This document shows positions 27,701-34,046 of a DNA stretch of 64,000 nt, piece by piece. The translations under genes and the position numbers were made by a program. The stretch is from Streptomyces sp. WMMC940. GTDB taxonomy: Bacteria > Actinomycetota > Actinomycetes > Streptomycetales > Streptomycetaceae. The stretch covers positions 2,631,501 to 2,695,500 of the forward strand of contig NZ_JAPZBC010000001.1 in NCBI RefSeq assembly GCF_027460265.1, written 5' to 3'. Each line of letters begins with the position of its first letter. The first letter of the stretch is position 1. The notes below the pieces were generated by a model. The model made no database searches and had not been told where the DNA came from. It saw only the letters and a program-made list of their open reading frames with translations.

Positions 27701-27925
27701 TCAGCGGCTGATCTCCGCGTTCGTCAGAACGAGAAGAGCCCGCAGCAGCATGGTGGCGTGCTTGGCGTTCATGCGGACCTTGGTGAGGATCCGCCAGTTC
27801 TTCAGGTCGGCGAAGCCGTGTTCGTTCGCCGCTGACCAGCCGATTCGCCTCCTTCTGGGCGGCGGTGAGCGGTTGGCCGCGGGTCGCCTTGCGGCCGGTG
27901 ATGATGACGGGGTCGTCGTCCAGGC
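27701..27925 (-). pseudogene. 3' remnant of an IS5-family transposase
   Basis: The last part of an IS5/IS1647-type transposase: LDDDPVIITGRKATRGQPLT and AAQKEANRLVS in one frame, then ANEHGFADLKNWRILTKVRM and ALLVLTNAEISR in another. A frameshift lies near 27830-27840. The 5' part is gone; at about 27926 the sequence changes abruptly to an ISL3 transposase reading on the same strand. Confidence 0.75.
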
Positions 27926-28707
27926 CGACGGACGCGGAGCATGCGCTCGGGCCGGTCGGCGCGGGCGTAGCGTTTGACGGTGTTCAGGGCCAGTTGCAGG
28001 CGGCGGGCGCACTCGAGCAGGCCCACGCCCTGGTCGAGCAGGCCGTGGACCTGGTGCCAGCGTTCGAGGGTGGTCTGGGCGCGGGGCCCGTCGTAGATGG
28101 GCGCGTCCAGTACGGCGGCCCAGCAGGTGCTGTGCGCTTTGACCTCGCTCAGGGCTGCTTCGCACAGGTTGTGCCACAGATGCCACCGGTCGGCGACTTG
28201 GACCGCGTCGGGCAGGGCGCGGCGGATGGCCTCGGCGTAGGTGGCGGAGCCGTCGCGGCACACGACCTCGACGCCTGGATGGTCGAGCAGCCACGTCTCG
28301 AGCGTGTCGGCCGTGCGGTCGGGCAGCACGTCGATCCGCTCATGGGTCTCGGCGTTGATGATCACGGTGGCGTAGCGGTGACGCCGGCGCAGAGCGAAGT
28401 CGTCGACGCCGATCACACGGGGCACCCGCCCGACGGGCAGCGGGATCCGCAGCAGCGTGCGCAGAGCCGTGTGACGCGACAGGCTCACCGCGAGTATCGC
28501 CAGCAAACGCGTCCCGGCCCGGCCCGCTAACTCCTTGACCACGGCCTTGACTTGCCTGGTCAGGCGGACGGTTCGCCGCTGATATCGGTCCAGCACTCCG
28601 GGCACCTGCTCGCGGAAGGTGTGGCGGCAGCCGCGCGTGGGACACACCAGGCGCCGCACCCGCACACGGACCACCACCCGTCGTTCATCGACCGGCACGT
28701 CGGCCAC
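27926..28707 (-). pseudogene. internal fragment of an ISL3-family transposase
   Basis: Encodes the middle of an ISL3 transposase, from a zinc-ribbon tail (RRLVCPTRGCRHTFREQV) through the catalytic start RVIGVDDFALRRRHRYATVI and VADRWHLWHNLCEAAL to LALNTVKRYARADRPERML. The N-terminus is cut off by the IS3 element starting at 28708, and the C-terminus is replaced by the IS5 remnant. It is a different ISL3 subgroup from the complete element at 89-2652. Confidence 0.8.
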
Positions 28708-28759
28708 TGTCCCTCCCCTCGTAGCGTGAAGACCGTGACTGCAGGGGAAGTTGGGAGTC

Positions 28760-29047
28760 ATGGCGGAGAAGCGACGGAAGTTCGATCCGGAGTTCCGTGA
28801 GGGGGCCGTACGGATCGTGACGGAGACCGGCAAGACGATCGCCGAGGTCGCCGAAGACCTGGGGATCAACGAGACCACTCTGGCGAGTTGGGTCTCCCGC
28901 GCCCGTCGGGCAGGGATCGCACCGGCCGGCGGGAGTGACGAGCTGGAGCGTCTGCGGCGTGAGGTCGCCCAGCTCAAGCGGGAGAAGAAGGAACTGGTCA
29001 TGGAGCGTGATGTCCTCAAACGCTGCATGGTCCTGTGGGTGAAGTAG
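28760..29047 (+). CDS. IS3 family transposase OrfA
   Basis: A 95-aa subunit with an N-terminal helix-turn-helix (TIAEVAEDLGINETTLASWV) and a C-terminal coiled coil (ELERLRREVAQLKREKKELV). It resembles the IS3 element at 2771 only at family level. ATG 28760 is preceded by GGGAG and is preferred over the upstream TTG. It overlaps OrfB by 13 bp, the expected place for the frameshift that makes OrfAB. Confidence 0.9.
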   Translation: MAEKRRKFDPEFREGAVRIVTETGKTIAEVAEDLGINETTLASWVSRARRAGIAPAGGSDELERLRREVAQLKREKKELVMERDVLKRCMVLWVK

Positions 29048-29955
29048 CCGTGGCGGACCCGGCGTCCGTCGTCGGGGTGATCAGCGACTTCAGGACCGAG
29101 CACGGCATTTCGCACCGTGTCTCCTGCCGCGCTCTGGGCGTGAGCGAGGCATGGTTCTACAAGCACCGCACCCGTCGGCCCACCCGGCGTGAGCTGCGCA
29201 GACAGCGTCTGATCGAAGCGGTGAAGGAGGAGTTCGACGACTCCGGCGGCACCTACGGCTCGCCGAAGATCTGGATCAGGCTGGTGAGGCAGGGCTGGCG
29301 GGTCTCCGTGAACACCGTCGCGAAGATCATGTCGGAGTTCGGCCTGGTCGCGCGGAAGGTACGAAGACGGCGGGGGCTGACCCGGCCGGGGAAACGGCTG
29401 GCCGCCCCGGACTTCGTGCGCCGCGACTTCACCGCCGAGGCGCCCGACCTGGTCTGGTGCGGAGACATGACCGAGATCGACGCCGGCGAGGGCAAGCTCT
29501 ATCTGGCCACGGTCATAGACCTGTTCTCCCGCCGCCTGCTCGGCTATGCGATGGGCGCCCGCCACGATGCCGACCTGGTCGTCGCTGCCCTCCACATGGC
29601 CGCCGCCACCCGCGGCGGGGACGTCCGCGGTGTGATCTTCCACAGCGATCGCGGAAGCGAGTACGGCTCGCGGAAGTTCCGCCGGGCCTGCCGGAAGCTG
29701 GGCGTCACCCAGTCCATGGGCCGGGTCGGATCATGTTTCGACAACGCCGTCAGCGAGGCGTTCAACAGCGTGCTGAAGGTCGAGTACGTCCATCGCCGGA
29801 CCTTCGCCACCCGCACCGAGGCCCGGATCCGGATCGCGACCTGGATCACCGACTTCTACAACGCTCGACGACTACACAGCGTGTGCGGCTGGAAGAGCCC
29901 GATCGACTACGAACACGACTACTGGGCCGGCTTCACCGGGGAGCTGGCTGCATAG
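29035..29955 (+). CDS. IS3 family transposase OrfB
   Basis: A 306-aa DDE recombinase. An HTH_21 segment (GGTYGSPKIWIRLVRQGWRV) precedes the rve core with Asp in LVWCGDMTEIDAGEGKLYL, Asp in VIFHSDRGSEYGSRKF and Glu in DNAVSEAFNSVLKVEYV. The ending ARIRIATWITDFYNARRLHS is typical for the group. No damage is visible. The antisense of its last 30 bp serves as the coding end of the cold-shock-like gene on the other strand. Confidence 0.92.
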   Translation: MGEVAVADPASVVGVISDFRTEHGISHRVSCRALGVSEAWFYKHRTRRPTRRELRRQRLIEAVKEEFDDSGGTYGSPKIWIRLVRQGWRVSVNTVAKIMSEFGLVARKVRRRRGLTRPGKRLAAPDFVRRDFTAEAPDLVWCGDMTEIDAGEGKLYLATVIDLFSRRLLGYAMGARHDADLVVAALHMAAATRGGDVRGVIFHSDRGSEYGSRKFRRACRKLGVTQSMGRVGSCFDNAVSEAFNSVLKVEYVHRRTFATRTEARIRIATWITDFYNARRLHSVCGWKSPIDYEHDYWAGFTGELAA

Positions 29956-30227
29956 GAAGGTCTCCACGAAACCGGGGGATTGACAGGCTGGTCGAGGCGA
30001 ATGACGAACTCCGCCCGGTCGGGGCTCTCAGCGCTGATGTGAAAGCGGACGCGTTCGCCCGTGCGGATGGTCCGGAATCCCTCGGTCACGATCTGCCGGT
30101 AGTCGAAGCCGTAGTACCGCTCATCCTCGTCGTCCTGGACGACATAGGTGCCGAGCGCGCCGCTCAACCCGCCACCATGCGGACGCCTGTCCACGATGGT
30201 TCCGTAACGCGGCCCGCCGCCGCTCAT
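29919..30227 (-). CDS. small cold-shock/OB-like protein, C-terminus replaced by IS3 end
   Basis: A 102-aa protein, third gene of the operon. Residues 8-77 look like a small beta-barrel of the cold-shock type: YGTIVDRRPHGGG, LGTYVVQDDEDERYYGFDYR, then GFRTIRTGERVRFHI and AEFVIRLDQP, with the alternating strand pattern and the G-x-x-V-x-F segment of that fold. Key aromatic RNA-binding motifs (KGFGFI, VFVH) are not exact. Its ATG overlaps the stop of the NTPase gene (ATGA). From 29985 on, coding passes into the IS3 right end and stops at 29919, so the last 24 residues are not original. A nucleic-acid-binding role is inference. Confidence 0.6.
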   Translation of the reverse strand: MSGGGPRYGTIVDRRPHGGGLSGALGTYVVQDDEDERYYGFDYRQIVTEGFRTIRTGERVRFHISAESPDRAEFVIRLDQPVNPPVSWRPSYAASSPVKPAQ

Positions 30228-32878
30228 GCCGTCGCCTCCTCCGTCCCTGATGTGTCGGGGTCTTGCACGCACCGGAAGCCGACCGCGTTGCTCCCGCCGC
30301 GCTTCCGGTAGATGCCCTTGCTGCTGGTCTGCACCGCACGCATCGGATTGTCGTAGCTGCCACCGCAGATGACGGCCTCGCCGGGGTCGTCCAGGATGGT
30401 GGATGTCCATTCCCAGCAGTTGCCCACCATGTCGAGGACGCCGAACGGGGAGCGGTTGCCCGGCCGTTCGCAGACGGGTGTCGCCCCGGCCCGCCGAACG
30501 GTGTTGCCTGCGAAGTCCCGGTACCACGCCTGATACGTCACGACAGGTCGGCCCACCCATGTGTCGGCACAGTTGACACGCACGCTGTCCGGCGTGTCGC
30601 CCCAGGGGAAAAGGCGTCCGTCGGTGCCACGGGCGGCGGCCTCCCACTCGAGGGAGGTCGGCAGCCGCTTGCCCTCGAACGCGGCGAAGGCGTATGCGCT
30701 CCACCAGTTGACGCAGATGGCAGGGTGAGCGTCGTAGCGCGGATTCTCGTAGTAGTCGGGCCGGCGCAGCCGGTCGGTCCAGGGGCGGTGTGTGACGTTG
30801 GCCGGCTGGTCGGGGTGGTCCCACTCCGAGGTGCCGTCCGTGTCGAGGGCGTCGAGGAAGCGGCGGTAGCGTGCGACGGTCACGGCATGGCCGTCGAAGC
30901 GTACGGGACGCTCGACGCGGCGGATCAGCAGCCGTTCGGCCGGCCCGACCAGGTACGCCCCGGCGGGCAGCACGCAGTCGTCCGTCTCCGGACTGCCGGG
31001 CACACCGGCGAGGAATGCGCGCACCTGCTCGGTGAGGAAGGCACCGCCGGGAAGGTCCGCTGCCAGGTCCTGGTTCGCCGGCTCAGCGAGAAACCTGGCA
31101 GCCAGTAGTTCCTGGTACGCCGTGTGCACGAAGGCGACGTGATCGGGCCCGGCGGGCCGCAGCAGCGGAGCGAGGACACAGGCGTCGCGATCGAGGCGCC
31201 CGTCCGTGAATGCGTTGGCTCCCAGCTGCCGGTGAATGTCGAGAAGGGAGAACACGGTGCGGTCGGTGAGGAAGGCATGTCCGAACGCGGCGGGCAGCCG
31301 CTGCTCCAGGTCGGGCTGCCCACGCTCGGCCAACGTCCGCGTGATGTGAGCGCCGAGGATGTCCGCGAGCGGCTTCCCCGCGGGAAGATTCAGCGCCGTG
31401 GTGAGGCGCGTCTCGAGAGGGGTTGCCCCGGGTTCGGCCAGCCGTACGACGTGGAAGTGCGGCACGCGTGACGGGTCGACGCCGTTCGCGTACATCTGCT
31501 CGACCAGCTGCTCGGAGCGGCCCGCGCCGCTGTCCAGCAGCTGACGTACCTGGGGTGAGTCCGCGAGGAAGGACACCCGTGAACTCATGACCACCGCCGA
31601 TTCGGCGGACAGCACGGCCGCGAGATCGGTGAAGAGCCGCAGGAAACCGGCAGGGCTTGGTACCTCGACGCCCTCGTCGACGGCATCGAGCACGCACAGT
31701 GCGGTCCCGGAACGGATGAGGTAGAGGAAGAGTTCGTAGGCACGTGAGCGGTCCGACGTCATGGCCGGGGCGAGAAGGCGGGCCGCGTACTCGGAGAACG
31801 GTTCGTCCTTCGGTTTGAGACCGAGGTCGAAGTAGAAGCGGAAGCGGCGGATCTCCGGGTTGACGGCCAGCGAGCGCAAGAGCGTGCTCTTGCCGCTCCC
31901 CGGACGACCGGTGACCAGGACGTTCGCACTGCCGCGCACCAGACGCGTCAAGACCTCCGCCGCGTCGCCGCACTGCTCCATCCTCGACTCACCGGTGCGC
32001 GGGTCGGTGGTCAACGCCGCCGCGGCGACAGCGGCCCTCGGATCCTCCGGGTTCACCGCGGAGGTGAGTTCGGCGAGGTGGATGTCGAGGTTGACGATGG
32101 TGTCGACAAAGCCGTCGTAACGCACGATACGGAAGTCGAGCCCCAACATATGATGGAGGGCGCCGGGTGCCGCACCGCCGTCTTCGTCCAGGACGACGAA
32201 TCGGGTGAGCTTGGGCAGCCGGGTGCGCAGCAGCTCGCCACCACTGGAGGCCAGGACGGTGCTCAGGTCATCGGCGTCCCGGGAGAGCATCAACTCCACG
32301 TATTCCAGCCGCATCCCCGACTCACGGCAGAACAACTGGTACACCGTGTCCGGGCTGAGGACGAACCGCTTCGCCTGCCGGTAGCCGAGCGTGACGTACA
32401 ACCCGGCAAGAAACTCACAGCGGCGCGCCACCTCGGGCGCCACGTCGGGCTCGCCCCCGAGCAGGGCCGCGCTCCCTGTATTGGTGAACCAGACCAGCAC
32501 GTCCACGAGCCTGCGGACCGCCAGCAGCCCGTCCTCGTCACCTATGTCGTACCCGTCGTGCGCGGACCGGTTGCGCAGCCGACGAATGTCCTCGAGCGCA
32601 TCCAGAACCGTGCTGCTGCGAATGTACGGCCGGCAGCGCTTGACCAGATCGTTCAAGGCCTTCGTCGAAGGATCGCCCTCGACGCCATGATGGCGCCACA
32701 GCTCCTTGAGCAGCTTCTCGGTCAGTTTCCCGACCAGGGCAACCGCGTTTTCGGGATAGCCGTCATTGAGCGACCGTAACGGCCGCTCCAGATCAAGCCC
32801 CAGCCGATCGGCGATCCGCGAGTGGTCGTCGAGTTCACTCCGTAGGCGCCGCAGCCGTTCATCGACCATGGTGCTCAC
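30224..32878 (-). CDS. HEPN-NACHT-FGE STAND NTPase (putative defence protein)
   Basis: An 884-aa multidomain protein. Residues 1-140 are helical and DUF4145/HEPN-like, with RNRSAH at 102-107, matching the R-x(4)-H nuclease motif. The NACHT core has Walker A GRPGSGKST (324-332), Walker B ALCVLDAVDE (393-402) and MSSRVSFL (431-438); VAFVHTAYQELLAARFL (581-597) matches the region after the winged helix. Residues about 655-872 are a formylglycine-generating-enzyme-like C-type-lectin fold: VTVARYRRFLDAL, GKRLPTSLEWEAAARG, LFPWGD, FGVLDMVGNCWEWT, AVGFRCVQ. NACHT and similar STAND ATPases sense invaders in bacteria; the terminal lectin-fold domain may be the sensor and HEPN the effector. It starts at GTG in a 4-bp overlap with the methyltransferase. 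Confidence 0.82.
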   Translation of the reverse strand: MSTMVDERLRRLRSELDDHSRIADRLGLDLERPLRSLNDGYPENAVALVGKLTEKLLKELWRHHGVEGDPSTKALNDLVKRCRPYIRSSTVLDALEDIRRLRNRSAHDGYDIGDEDGLLAVRRLVDVLVWFTNTGSAALLGGEPDVAPEVARRCEFLAGLYVTLGYRQAKRFVLSPDTVYQLFCRESGMRLEYVELMLSRDADDLSTVLASSGGELLRTRLPKLTRFVVLDEDGGAAPGALHHMLGLDFRIVRYDGFVDTIVNLDIHLAELTSAVNPEDPRAAVAAAALTTDPRTGESRMEQCGDAAEVLTRLVRGSANVLVTGRPGSGKSTLLRSLAVNPEIRRFRFYFDLGLKPKDEPFSEYAARLLAPAMTSDRSRAYELFLYLIRSGTALCVLDAVDEGVEVPSPAGFLRLFTDLAAVLSAESAVVMSSRVSFLADSPQVRQLLDSGAGRSEQLVEQMYANGVDPSRVPHFHVVRLAEPGATPLETRLTTALNLPAGKPLADILGAHITRTLAERGQPDLEQRLPAAFGHAFLTDRTVFSLLDIHRQLGANAFTDGRLDRDACVLAPLLRPAGPDHVAFVHTAYQELLAARFLAEPANQDLAADLPGGAFLTEQVRAFLAGVPGSPETDDCVLPAGAYLVGPAERLLIRRVERPVRFDGHAVTVARYRRFLDALDTDGTSEWDHPDQPANVTHRPWTDRLRRPDYYENPRYDAHPAICVNWWSAYAFAAFEGKRLPTSLEWEAAARGTDGRLFPWGDTPDSVRVNCADTWVGRPVVTYQAWYRDFAGNTVRRAGATPVCERPGNRSPFGVLDMVGNCWEWTSTILDDPGEAVICGGSYDNPMRAVQTSSKGIYRKRGGSNAVGFRCVQDPDTSGTEEATA

Positions 32879-33651
32879 GCCGACTCCCCACCTCGCCGGC
32901 CGAGGACGAACGCGAACCGGTCCGGAAACACGAGCACAGGCTCCGGATGAGCGACCCGCATCTCCTCGATGCCCTTCTCGATCTCGCTGTCGCTGAAGGT
33001 GGACAGCAGGGACATATAACGGGCACGCACCATGCCGAGGTACTTGTCCCGATCGATGCGCAGCTCATGCTCGACATGGCTGCGACCGGCCGACAGCCCG
33101 ACAGCTCGCAAGTGCCCCTCGATAACGGCCGGGTCCGGCTGCAGTTCCTCGAAGCGCGCGAGGGCCGCCTCGAACAGCGGGTACTGGATGGTGGCCGGAA
33201 GCATCACCACCAGCAGCCGGCCTCCGGGCGCCAGCCGGTCGGCCAGGCCGCGAAGCGTGTGCGCCGGATCGGCCACGTGATGCACCGACTCTTTCAGCCA
33301 CATCGCATCGAGTTGCTCGTATGGCAGTCGTGTACGCCCTTCTGCGATGTCCTCGGCAGAAGCAACGATTGGTGTCAGGTCGGCCGGAGGCGGCATTCCG
33401 AGCTGACCGAGCATCGCCTCGGAAGGATCGACGCACAGAACGGGACGGTGAGGCTGGAGCCGCTTGGCCACTTCCCTGGCGAACAGGCCCGTACCGGAGC
33501 CGATGTCGGCGATCCGGTCCGTGGGGCCGAGCCGCAGCGCCTCAGCGATCCGGCCGGACATCCAGGGAATGTAGTCCGGACTATAGACCCAGTGCTCGTC
33601 GTATTCGGCTGCCAACTCCTCGTAGTGCCCTCGCGCGTCGCGCCCCTCCAC
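32875..33651 (-). CDS. class I SAM-dependent methyltransferase
   Basis: A 258-aa methyltransferase, first gene of the three-gene operon. The SAM site is IADIGSGTGLFAREVAKRL (about residues 47-65), followed by VLCVDPSEAML (acidic loop) and ASAEDIAEGRTRLPYEQLD, with LKESVHHVADPAHTLRGLAD as post-motif III. The substrate is not evident; the closest architecture is that of small-molecule or cofactor methyltransferases of the Methyltransf_11/25 type. The start is GTG 33651. Its stop overlaps the NTPase start (GTGA), so dosage is coupled to the NTPase, unlike a chance neighbour. Confidence 0.82.
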   Translation of the reverse strand: MEGRDARGHYEELAAEYDEHWVYSPDYIPWMSGRIAEALRLGPTDRIADIGSGTGLFAREVAKRLQPHRPVLCVDPSEAMLGQLGMPPPADLTPIVASAEDIAEGRTRLPYEQLDAMWLKESVHHVADPAHTLRGLADRLAPGGRLLVVMLPATIQYPLFEAALARFEELQPDPAVIEGHLRAVGLSAGRSHVEHELRIDRDKYLGMVRARYMSLLSTFSDSEIEKGIEEMRVAHPEPVLVFPDRFAFVLGRRGGESA

Positions 33652-34046
33652 GATCCCCCTCGCGTGCCGCCGGTTGTGCCGTACAGGGCACAGGACAGGC
33701 TATCGCGGGTACTTGATCGGCAACATGCTGTAACTGGACGTTCTGGCCAACATCAGCTCTGACCCCCACGGCCTGTTCTCCCGGCTGCCGGCCACCCGTC
33801 ACGACGGGCCGCGCGGCAGCCCGGATCGACGATATTGCGGGAAAGAGCGCGCCACGCCACCCCAGTCACCGCCCCAGCCGCCCCGCAGTGGCCCTCTGGC
33901 TACAGATTTCACCGGACCCCGGCCGATCCCACTGACGCCCCGTCAGTCACATCCAGCGCCGATCCAGCAACGGTACGGATGACCAGGGATGACGACAGGT
34001 GACGAGACGTCAGGAGATCCAGCACGGATCCAGCACCGGATACAGC
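33652..34046. other. accessory/core junction region
   Basis: About 395 bp with no gene seen. It contains the promoter of the methyltransferase operon (divergent to nothing on the right) and, at 33949-34035, a cluster of GATCCAGCA-type repeats (33961, 34016 and 34027, with a weaker ATCCAGCG at 33951). These could be arm-type recombinase sites of an element end, but I found no matching core near the integrase. Confidence 0.4.

Follow-up and report, generated by a model that had tools for sequence, protein, structure and literature searches.

The stretch analyzed here, hereafter the window, comprises 64,000 nucleotides of Streptomyces sp. WMMC940 (contig NZ_JAPZBC010000001.1, positions 2,631,501 to 2,695,500 of the forward strand). 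On its minus strand it carries an operon of three genes, denoted g1, g2, and g3. The first gene, g1 (32875..33651, GTG start), encodes a class I S-adenosylmethionine (SAM)-dependent methyltransferase of 258 amino acids. The second, g2 (30224..32878), encodes an 884-amino-acid protein with the domain order HEPN-(alpha/beta)-NACHT-helical-FGE, in which FGE stands for formylglycine-generating enzyme. The third, g3, encodes a cold-shock-like protein, and its homologous part covers 29985..30227 (residues 1-81 of about 88). A previous reading of the letters alone, without database searches (the sequence-only reading), had described these three open reading frames (ORFs), and all three were found at the coordinates it gave. 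The overlaps of g1 with g2 (GTGA, 32875-32878) and of g2 with g3 (ATGA, 30224-30227) could be read directly in the sequence. Comparison with relatives revealed that the real unit is larger than three genes: it is a four-gene cassette found in soil actinobacteria.

A coupled and mobile four-gene cassette

The fourth gene, g4, was found by clustering the ORFs flanking the operon in relatives, where a conserved coding stretch lies directly 3' of g3. The sequence-only reading had proposed a methyltransferase, HEPN/NACHT/FGE, and cold-shock operon as the functional unit. The coupling and co-conservation of these three genes held up, while the fourth, CorA-like gene had been missed.

We searched 392 Streptomyces genomes with g2, scoring two candidates per genome. 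Matches at E<=0.001 were found in 353 genomes, and the great bulk of the matches listed covered the FGE domain only; full-length g2 was present in 19 of the 392, the window genome included. A scan of 84,980 species genomes uncovered 47 loci, among which the match of L101 is confined to the FGE domain. The named hosts of the others belong to six genera: Streptomyces, Spongiactinospora, Nonomuraea, Microtetraspora, Actinoallomurus, and Streptosporangium. All loci with a full-length g2 also have g1 and g3 matches in the same order, down to about 55% identity in the five genera other than Streptomyces, and the co-occurrence on which the sequence-only reading had made its operon depend is therefore present. 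Using tblastn, g4 was detected in 60 of 69 loci (duplicates and the window counted). The loci lacking it are L034/L057, L049/L088, L050, the window, L093, L094, and L099; in L088 the contig continues past the expected position, and in L071 the adjacent g4 has an internal deletion.

Excluding eight duplicates and the window copy gave 60 non-redundant loci. The four genes were intact and contiguous in 41 of them, and an exact 4-bp overlap was found between g1 and g2 in 40, between g2 and g3 in 37, and between g3 and g4 in all 41. The overlaps that the sequence-only reading had pointed out are not due to chance, as the exact 4 bp recurs across intact relatives. Among the remaining 19 loci, three are cut by a contig end (L063, L064, and L078), one ends near a contig end (L093), and 15 are truncated, deleted, or frameshifted, some of which may reflect assembly errors. 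The g1 gene is split or frameshifted in L034 (identical to L057) and L049 (identical to L088) and cut by the contig end in L063 and L064, and g2 is broken in the Streptosporangium locus L089.

A search starting from g4, independent of g2, gave a consistent picture. Fifteen of 394 genomes of the class were matched, and 11 of these keep g2, g3, and g4 together, whole or decayed. One of the matched genomes (G218) is that of the decayed locus L052. Of the 14 other loci from this search, nine carry all four genes with a full-length g2, including L134, in which g1 is in two pieces, and L124, whose contig is exactly as long as that of L079. L127 retains a partial g2 together with g3 and g4, L135 and L136 hold only parts of g4, and L137 gave no match. 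The g3 family (E<1e-30) was detected in 12 of the same 394 genomes; 11 of these also have g4, and the twelfth is the window genome. Eight weaker g3 matches (E 4e-5 to 9e-4) look, by their scores, like ordinary cold-shock proteins.

We then compared the DNA surrounding the cassette. DNA conservation climbs about 90 bp before g1 and drops at the g4 stop codon. In an alignment of 52 loci, the mean share of the commonest base was 0.54-0.77 in the last 90 bp before g1 and 0.10-0.47 further upstream. In the window, this partly conserved leader of about 90 bp (33652..33741, minus strand) forms the 5' edge of the conserved cassette and may contain a promoter. Among the 53 loci with both flanks available (window included), flank DNA of at least 300 bp was common to 33 of 1,378 locus pairs, on the same side in 19, and a single pair shared both flanks. 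The gene encoding YchF, which lies upstream in the window, was in no other stretch among the relative loci compared. Since flank DNA is almost never shared, the cassette moves on its own, as a unit.

The window copy is damaged. Its g3 ORF of 102 amino acids matches relatives at residues 1-81, and the last 21 residues (about 29919-29984) are insertion-element sequence. Intact g3 proteins are 86-97 amino acids long with a C-terminus of ...RLDQPDPAEYYR or close to it, and the tail (29919..29984, minus strand), which lies outside the system, is missing from the 20 relatives in alignment A2. The third ORF of the sequence-only reading was correctly placed and is cold-shock-like, while its end does not belong to the gene. 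The tail overlaps the end of an IS3 transposase ORF at 29955. This IS3-family element, which interrupts the operon, consists of orfA and orfB (28751..29955, plus strand; in orfB, rve E 5.4e-28 and HTH_21), and no inverted repeat pairing its two ends was found. The g4 gene, expected downstream of g3, had no significant match in the window or the whole genome and was presumably removed by insertion plus deletion. Because the IS3 element replaces the end of g3 and g4 is lost, the window copy is probably a relic that would not function as a whole. A NACHT-FGE protein read alone, as in this copy, conceals part of the system.

Beside the IS3 element lies a long ORF (27802..29643, minus strand) that holds part of an ISL3 transposase domain, matching DDE_Tnp_ISL3 (E 5.5e-18) over positions 1-98 of the 240 in the profile. 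The IS3 and ISL3 transposase sequences abut at the broken operon end (window 27802-29955). Other remnants were seen elsewhere. Pieces of g2 occur in three more Streptomyces genomes (G124, G218, and G349), and G128 has a partial second copy. The locus in G349 (L053) is a scrambled relic, in which one ORF joins the start of g1 to most of g3, a full-length g4 adjoins, and a g2 fragment lies about 4 kb off. A second, partial C-terminal half of g2 (query residues 527-880) was found about 2.8 kb downstream of a complete operon (L129:13616-14671).

Domains and predicted folds of the four proteins

To describe g2, we combined motifs, profiles, and a structural model. All features are on the minus strand. 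The HEPN domain (32459..32878, residues 1-140) is helical in the model, has DUF4145 matches, and contains the motifs RNRSAH (32558..32575, residues 102-107) and Ex3K (32705..32719, residues 54-58). It is followed by an alpha/beta domain (32054..32380, residues 167-275, from the secondary structure of the model) and by the NACHT STAND ATPase (31469..31978, about residues 301-470), with Walker A GRPGSGKST (31883..31909, residues 324-332) and Walker B CVLDAVDE (31673..31696, residues 395-402). The C-terminal FGE/C-type-lectin-fold domain (30266..30973, residues 636-871) is the predicted sensor. The HEPN residues R102, N103, H107, E54, and K58 and the ATPase residues K330, D398, D401, and E402 were invariant in all 39 aligned g2 members. 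In the relevant part of PMC3710099, DUF4145 is counted among the HEPN families, the Rx4-6H motif, its R followed by a polar residue, is located where helix 3 ends, and an Ex3[KR] motif is described in many HEPN families. The g2 protein follows these rules: RN-x3-H closes helix 89-106, and the Ex3K motif (E54/K58) lies in the earlier helix 42-63.

In the window copy, the Pfam FGE-sulfatase profile covers residues 636-871 with E 7.7e-33. The NACHT match was under the Pfam cut-off in the window copy (22.4 vs 26.7 bits), as was an AAA_16 match, and over the cut-off in the relative P0007 (35.6 vs 26.7 bits). At E<=0.1, NACHT and FGE were each found in 39 of the 39 aligned members and DUF4145 in 28 (best 1.9e-4). 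An AlphaFold2 model built from 39 sequences (mean pLDDT 72.9, pTM 0.64) consists of a helical domain at the N-terminus, the alpha/beta stretch 167-275, the ATPase, a helical region, and an FGE domain of poor prediction quality, with low confidence across much of 756-866. When the whole model was searched with Foldseek, the matches were NOD2 (E 2.3e-7), CalU17 (1.5e-5), Avs4 (8dgf, 5.4e-5), and NLRP1 (2e-4), with other AAA+ ATPases ranking below NLRP1. The PDB relatives of the FGE domain are CalU17 and FGE (best E 2.3e-20). The sequence-only reading of this protein as HEPN, NACHT, and FGE in one chain was therefore sound: the motifs lie at the residues it named, Pfam and Foldseek support the assignment, and the model supports HEPN and NACHT, with the FGE part supported mainly by sequence profiles.

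The FGE domain is fused C-terminal to the STAND NTPase in all 39 members. The order HEPN 1-140, NACHT 301-470, FGE 636-871 fits the plan of an N-terminal effector, a NACHT ATPase, and a C-terminal sensor, and the two ends of g2 would act as effector (HEPN) and sensor (FGE). The alpha/beta stretch 167-275 could not be assigned an identity from the Foldseek list. A restriction-endonuclease-like element order was considered for it and dropped, as there was no catalytic motif or hit. The copper cysteines of true FGE may be missing from the GGSYDNP stretch of g2.

The sequence-only reading had raised the FGE-like sensor as a target of diversification. Mean pairwise identity among g2 members was highest in the HEPN part (0.815) and equal in NACHT (0.742) and FGE (0.741), which argues that the sensor is not diversified. 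A diversity-generating retroelement was rejected on this ground and for the lack of a reverse transcriptase near the window; the nearest RVT_1 match is about 2.6 Mb away (the window genome was searched, the relatives were not). The window genome has six reverse-transcriptase matches, near 27-29 kb, 5.46, 6.58, and 7.54 Mb, all more than 2.5 Mb from the window. Separate Streptomyces ORFs of about 440-720 amino acids contain an FGE-like domain that shares roughly 39-46% identity with the C-terminus of g2 (L024-L031; G107, G160, and G095), with two neighboring copies in three genomes.

The g4 gene is an ORF of 400-440 (about 425) amino acids, with two C-terminal hydrophobic segments in the three proteins examined. 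In the structural model (mean pLDDT 76.5), an alpha/beta domain at the N-terminus is followed by long helices that form a stalk and by two hydrophobic helices at the C-terminus. By sequence, g4 had no Pfam match above chance (no CorA at E<=1), no NCBIfam match over cut-off, and no PDB match. By fold, Foldseek ranks 1-14 were all CorA or ZntB (best E 2.5e-4). The best matches to the CorA-like models of PADLOC, which we take to be derived from type III CRISPR loci, were E 2e-10 (38.0 bits) for P0004, 2.7e-10 (37.7) for P0014, and 7.7e-6 (23.1) for P0005. These matches cover the stalk and membrane part, not the ligand domain. On these grounds of model and profile, g4 is best classed as a predicted CorA-like membrane protein and not as a standard magnesium transporter. 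With the PADLOC model PDLC01043 alone, P0004, P0014, and P0005 scored 38.0, 31.2, and 15 bits. Matches to this model also turned up in 98 of the 336 phylum genomes searched, at scores of up to 30.2 bits, and in 5 of 14 controls, so a special nearness of g4 to CRISPR-type CorA is suggestive at most. No Cas protein was recognized among the four genes, and the flanks were not searched for cas10 as such. A search of the phylum with the divergent g4 P0014 gave one marginal match (1/396).

Two further loci link g4 to HEPN-like partners. In L130, a g4 homolog 38% identical to P0005 follows a single ORF of 848 amino acids (L130:4509-8364), which combines an N-terminal P-loop (GGIGSGKT), an RNDFVH motif seen by eye, and a C-terminal methyltransferase (Pfam E 1.5e-21), joining methyltransferase and NTPase in one chain. 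This fusion, a single case, could represent the same system in condensed form in another actinobacterium. When the 848-amino-acid protein was compared with 35 genomes of its family, the matches listed besides itself all start at residue 527 or later and are mainly to the methyltransferase. L071 contains a second copy of g4 next to a 265-amino-acid ORF (L071:11606-13793, minus strand). The two overlap by 14 bp if the first GTG of this g4 copy is taken as its start, and the ORF matches DUF4145 over the cut-off (28.7 vs 23.1 bits). The second copy lies about 2 kb from the operon whose own g4 has the internal deletion.

The remaining two proteins were compared with known families. The g1 protein matches Methyltransf_12 (E 2.3e-12), and its relatives in the PDB are SAM methyltransferases of various kinds (best E 3e-11). 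Its SAM site includes DIGSGTG (33487..33507, minus strand, residues 49-55), which we take to be motif I, and the SAM-site residues D49, G51, G53, T54, D75, and E100 were invariant in all 43 aligned members. The g3 protein resembles the second half of cold-shock domains. Its alignment to host cold-shock proteins by hhalign reached a probability of 90% (E 1.4e-6, 29 columns), with five of six host proteins, and its cold-shock match in the PDB had E 0.0015. By eye, the g3 alignment shows no counterpart of the KGFGF/KGYGF or VFVH/VFAH stretches of the host proteins, which are presumably the RNA-binding motifs RNP1 and RNP2.

Predicted function and rival explanations

We consider it fairly probable that the cassette is a mobile four-gene anti-invader (abortive-infection) system resembling NLRs (nucleotide-binding leucine-rich-repeat receptors), with two predicted effectors. 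It is probably an uncharacterized anti-virus defense system, with phages as its presumed targets. As receptor and switch, g2 would sense an invader molecule through its C-terminal FGE/lectin-fold domain, upon which the NACHT ATPase would pass from an ADP-bound closed state to an ATP-bound open oligomer. Pairing of the N-terminal HEPN domains would then create an RNase that needs no metal and cleaves RNA of the cell or the virus. The g4 protein would be a second effector, at the membrane, a channel that depolarizes the cell when the receptor fires, and g3 may be an adaptor or an RNA- or nucleotide-binding part linking receptor and channel. The methyltransferase g1 would most likely partner the HEPN/NTPase half, marking self RNA or keeping HEPN off. 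Should the cassette be a defense system, it would unite in a single tightly coupled operon an NLR-like receptor and two different predicted ways of killing, by cutting RNA and by opening a membrane channel. It would also place a CorA-like effector under an NLR instead of CRISPR, with a methyltransferase and a cold-shock-like protein as standing partners, and would make the way in which bacterial NLRs talk to membrane effectors directly testable.

Several observations weigh against this interpretation. The DUF4145 match in window g2 (residues 36-121) scored 18.2 bits, under the cut-off of 23.1. The Foldseek TM-scores of g4 to CorA were low (0.10-0.31), with E<=0.001 in three of the 14 matches, and the GMN motif, presumably the selectivity motif of CorA metal transporters, was found in none of 45 g4 proteins. 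The matches of g3 to the Pfam CSD profile (E 0.025 and 0.01) were both below the cut-off, and Apaf-1 CARD chains appear lower in its PDB list (E 0.035-0.047). The linkage of the genes is not absolute: in L130 g4 stands without the other three, and in L090 and L127 it lacks g1. No match to g4 (P0004) was found in the phage collection, and the plasmid collection gave one match with P0005, in a Streptomyces mirabilis record of 1.03 Mb. The sequence-only reading had likened the surroundings to a defense island, and this received no clear support. All 109 flank ORFs from 20 loci were compared with 109 of 125 control ORFs, taken in the same genomes from 20 regions at a distance of about 70-500 kb; at E<=1e-10, 65 PADLOC families were matched in flanks and 54 in controls, no clear excess. 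Among the first 25 families listed for each set (20 loci, alignment A9), one flank protein fits the DISARM DrmA model (E 1.3e-204) and one DrmB (1.5e-74); those listed for the control regions include a type IV restriction enzyme and DrmD.

The cassette could instead serve its host. Actinomycetes are mycelial, and the named hosts here are actinomycetes. An endogenous ligand arising in mycelial differentiation, or stress, could trigger a programmed cell death switch, in which the RNase and membrane effectors kill compartments. The over-representation of FGS conflict systems in multicellular bacteria, reported for FGS in cyanobacteria in part of PMC8195603, would agree with this. However, one would expect a developmental switch to occur widely and in conserved gene neighborhoods, and the cassette is sporadic (full-length g2 in 19 of 392 Streptomyces genomes), variable in location, and damaged in 15 of 60 copies, which makes this explanation unlikely. 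We regard as distinctly unlikely a module resembling toxin-antitoxin or addiction systems, in which HEPN (and CorA-like) activity is the toxin, the methyltransferase is a modifying antitoxin, and the whole spreads selfishly, like HEPN-MNT pairs. The HEPN motif is intact, the modifying enzyme g1 is encoded first and coupled, the cassette is mobile, and a fused protein with NTPase, RNDFVH motif, and methyltransferase adjoins a g4 homolog. Moreover, in L050 and L094 g1 is intact whereas g2 is reduced to its front part, as if the toxin had been lost first. On the other hand, the cassette is far bigger than a usual toxin-antitoxin pair and has a conserved FGE domain, a type of domain for which invader sensing has been predicted, and L090 and L127 lack g1 while g3 and g4 persist, though g2 is partial there. 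These objections may be compatible with a toxin-antitoxin-like layer inside a defense system.

The SAM-binding g1 might also make, alter, or remove a SAM-derived messenger that gates g4, as SAM-AMP does with CorA in type III CRISPR. A CorA effector gated by SAM-AMP is described in the relevant part of PMC10600005. A protein with a SAM site accompanies g4 in 41 loci, and P0004 (38.0 bits) and P0014 (31.2 bits) score higher than any PDLC01043 match of the phylum search (98 of 336 genomes, 30.2 bits at most), but P0005 reaches just 15 bits. In addition, no Cas10-like synthase was recognized among the four genes, the PADLOC match covers the stalk and membrane part and not the ligand domain, and in L130 it is the NTPase side, and not g4, that carries the fused methyltransferase domain. 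We find this highly doubtful. Beyond the diversity of the parts, nothing suggests that chance alone keeps functionally unconnected genes side by side within a single lineage. The order of the genes and their 4-bp overlaps stay constant over six named genera while the flanks are shuffled. The finding of four intact genes at 41 of 60 loci, with exact overlaps at 37 to 41 of these depending on the junction, contradicts such a grouping, to which we give next to no credence.

The preferred reading, an NLR-like anti-invader system, may be extended to signaling from the receptor to the membrane. An activated NACHT/HEPN receptor could act via g1 and g3 to yield a SAM- or RNA-derived ligand gating the CorA-like channel, a scheme we regard as a long shot. 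If true, this would be a bacterial NLR that signals to the membrane, parallel to SAM-AMP/CorA but independent of CRISPR, and its paired outputs would be RNA cleavage and membrane depolarization.

Comparison with known systems

STAND-FGE proteins have been published, and full-text literature searches (subscription papers and outside preprints lay beyond their scope) found none with this partner set; in the part of PMC10910872 available, NACHT and CorA appear only in figure legends. One close likeness is to the STAND NTPase-FGS conflict systems, which the relevant parts of PMC8195603 (Kaur et al. 2021) and PMC7159879 (Kaur et al. 2020) describe as a NACHT-clade STAND ATPase with an FGE/FGS lectin-fold domain and an N-terminal effector or adaptor. 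The N-terminal examples given in the STAND-FGS passage of PMC8195603 are effector-associated domains (EADs), TIR, DRHyd, calcineurin, caspase, trypsin, kinase, and FHA, with frequent links to diversity-generating retroelements. Section 7 of that paper names no HEPN, methyltransferase, cold-shock, or CorA partner for STAND-FGS, and another passage describes a HEPN effector fused to an inactive STAND module. Unlike these systems, HEPN is here joined to an intact NACHT, the FGE domain is conserved, no reverse transcriptase lies near the window, and the methyltransferase, cold-shock-like, and CorA-like partners are fixed.

The cassette also resembles bNACHT and Avs proteins (PMC12169576, in part) in its plan of effector, NACHT/STAND, and sensor and in the fold match of g2 to Avs4 and NOD2, whereas the four proteins in that part of the paper have a PD-(D/E)XK nuclease or no clear effector, and partner genes are unnamed there. 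With the type III CRISPR CorA effector, as presented in parts of PMC10600005 and PMC11229360, it shares a membrane effector that is related to CorA and has its own soluble domain at the N-terminus, as well as a SAM-dependent component in the same locus. It differs in that no Cas or SAM-AMP-degrading enzyme was recognized among the four genes, the ligand domain of g4 is not recognizably related, and the methyltransferase does not correspond to any known SAM-AMP enzyme. CoCoNuTs, type IV restriction systems predicted to target RNA, likewise combine an NTPase, cold-shock-like OB domains, and HEPN RNases in coupled operons, but in the part of PMC11090510 concerned they have a McrB-type GTPase, coiled coils, and McrC homologs, and no NACHT, FGE, or CorA-like part. 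The HEPN-MNT toxin-antitoxin pairs (PMC3710099, in part) share a HEPN domain with a linked modifying enzyme; here a methyltransferase takes the place of the nucleotidyltransferase, and an NLR-like receptor with a membrane partner is added. Judged from these comparisons, the novelty of the cassette would lie in an NLR-like system of known plan equipped with a new effector and partner set.

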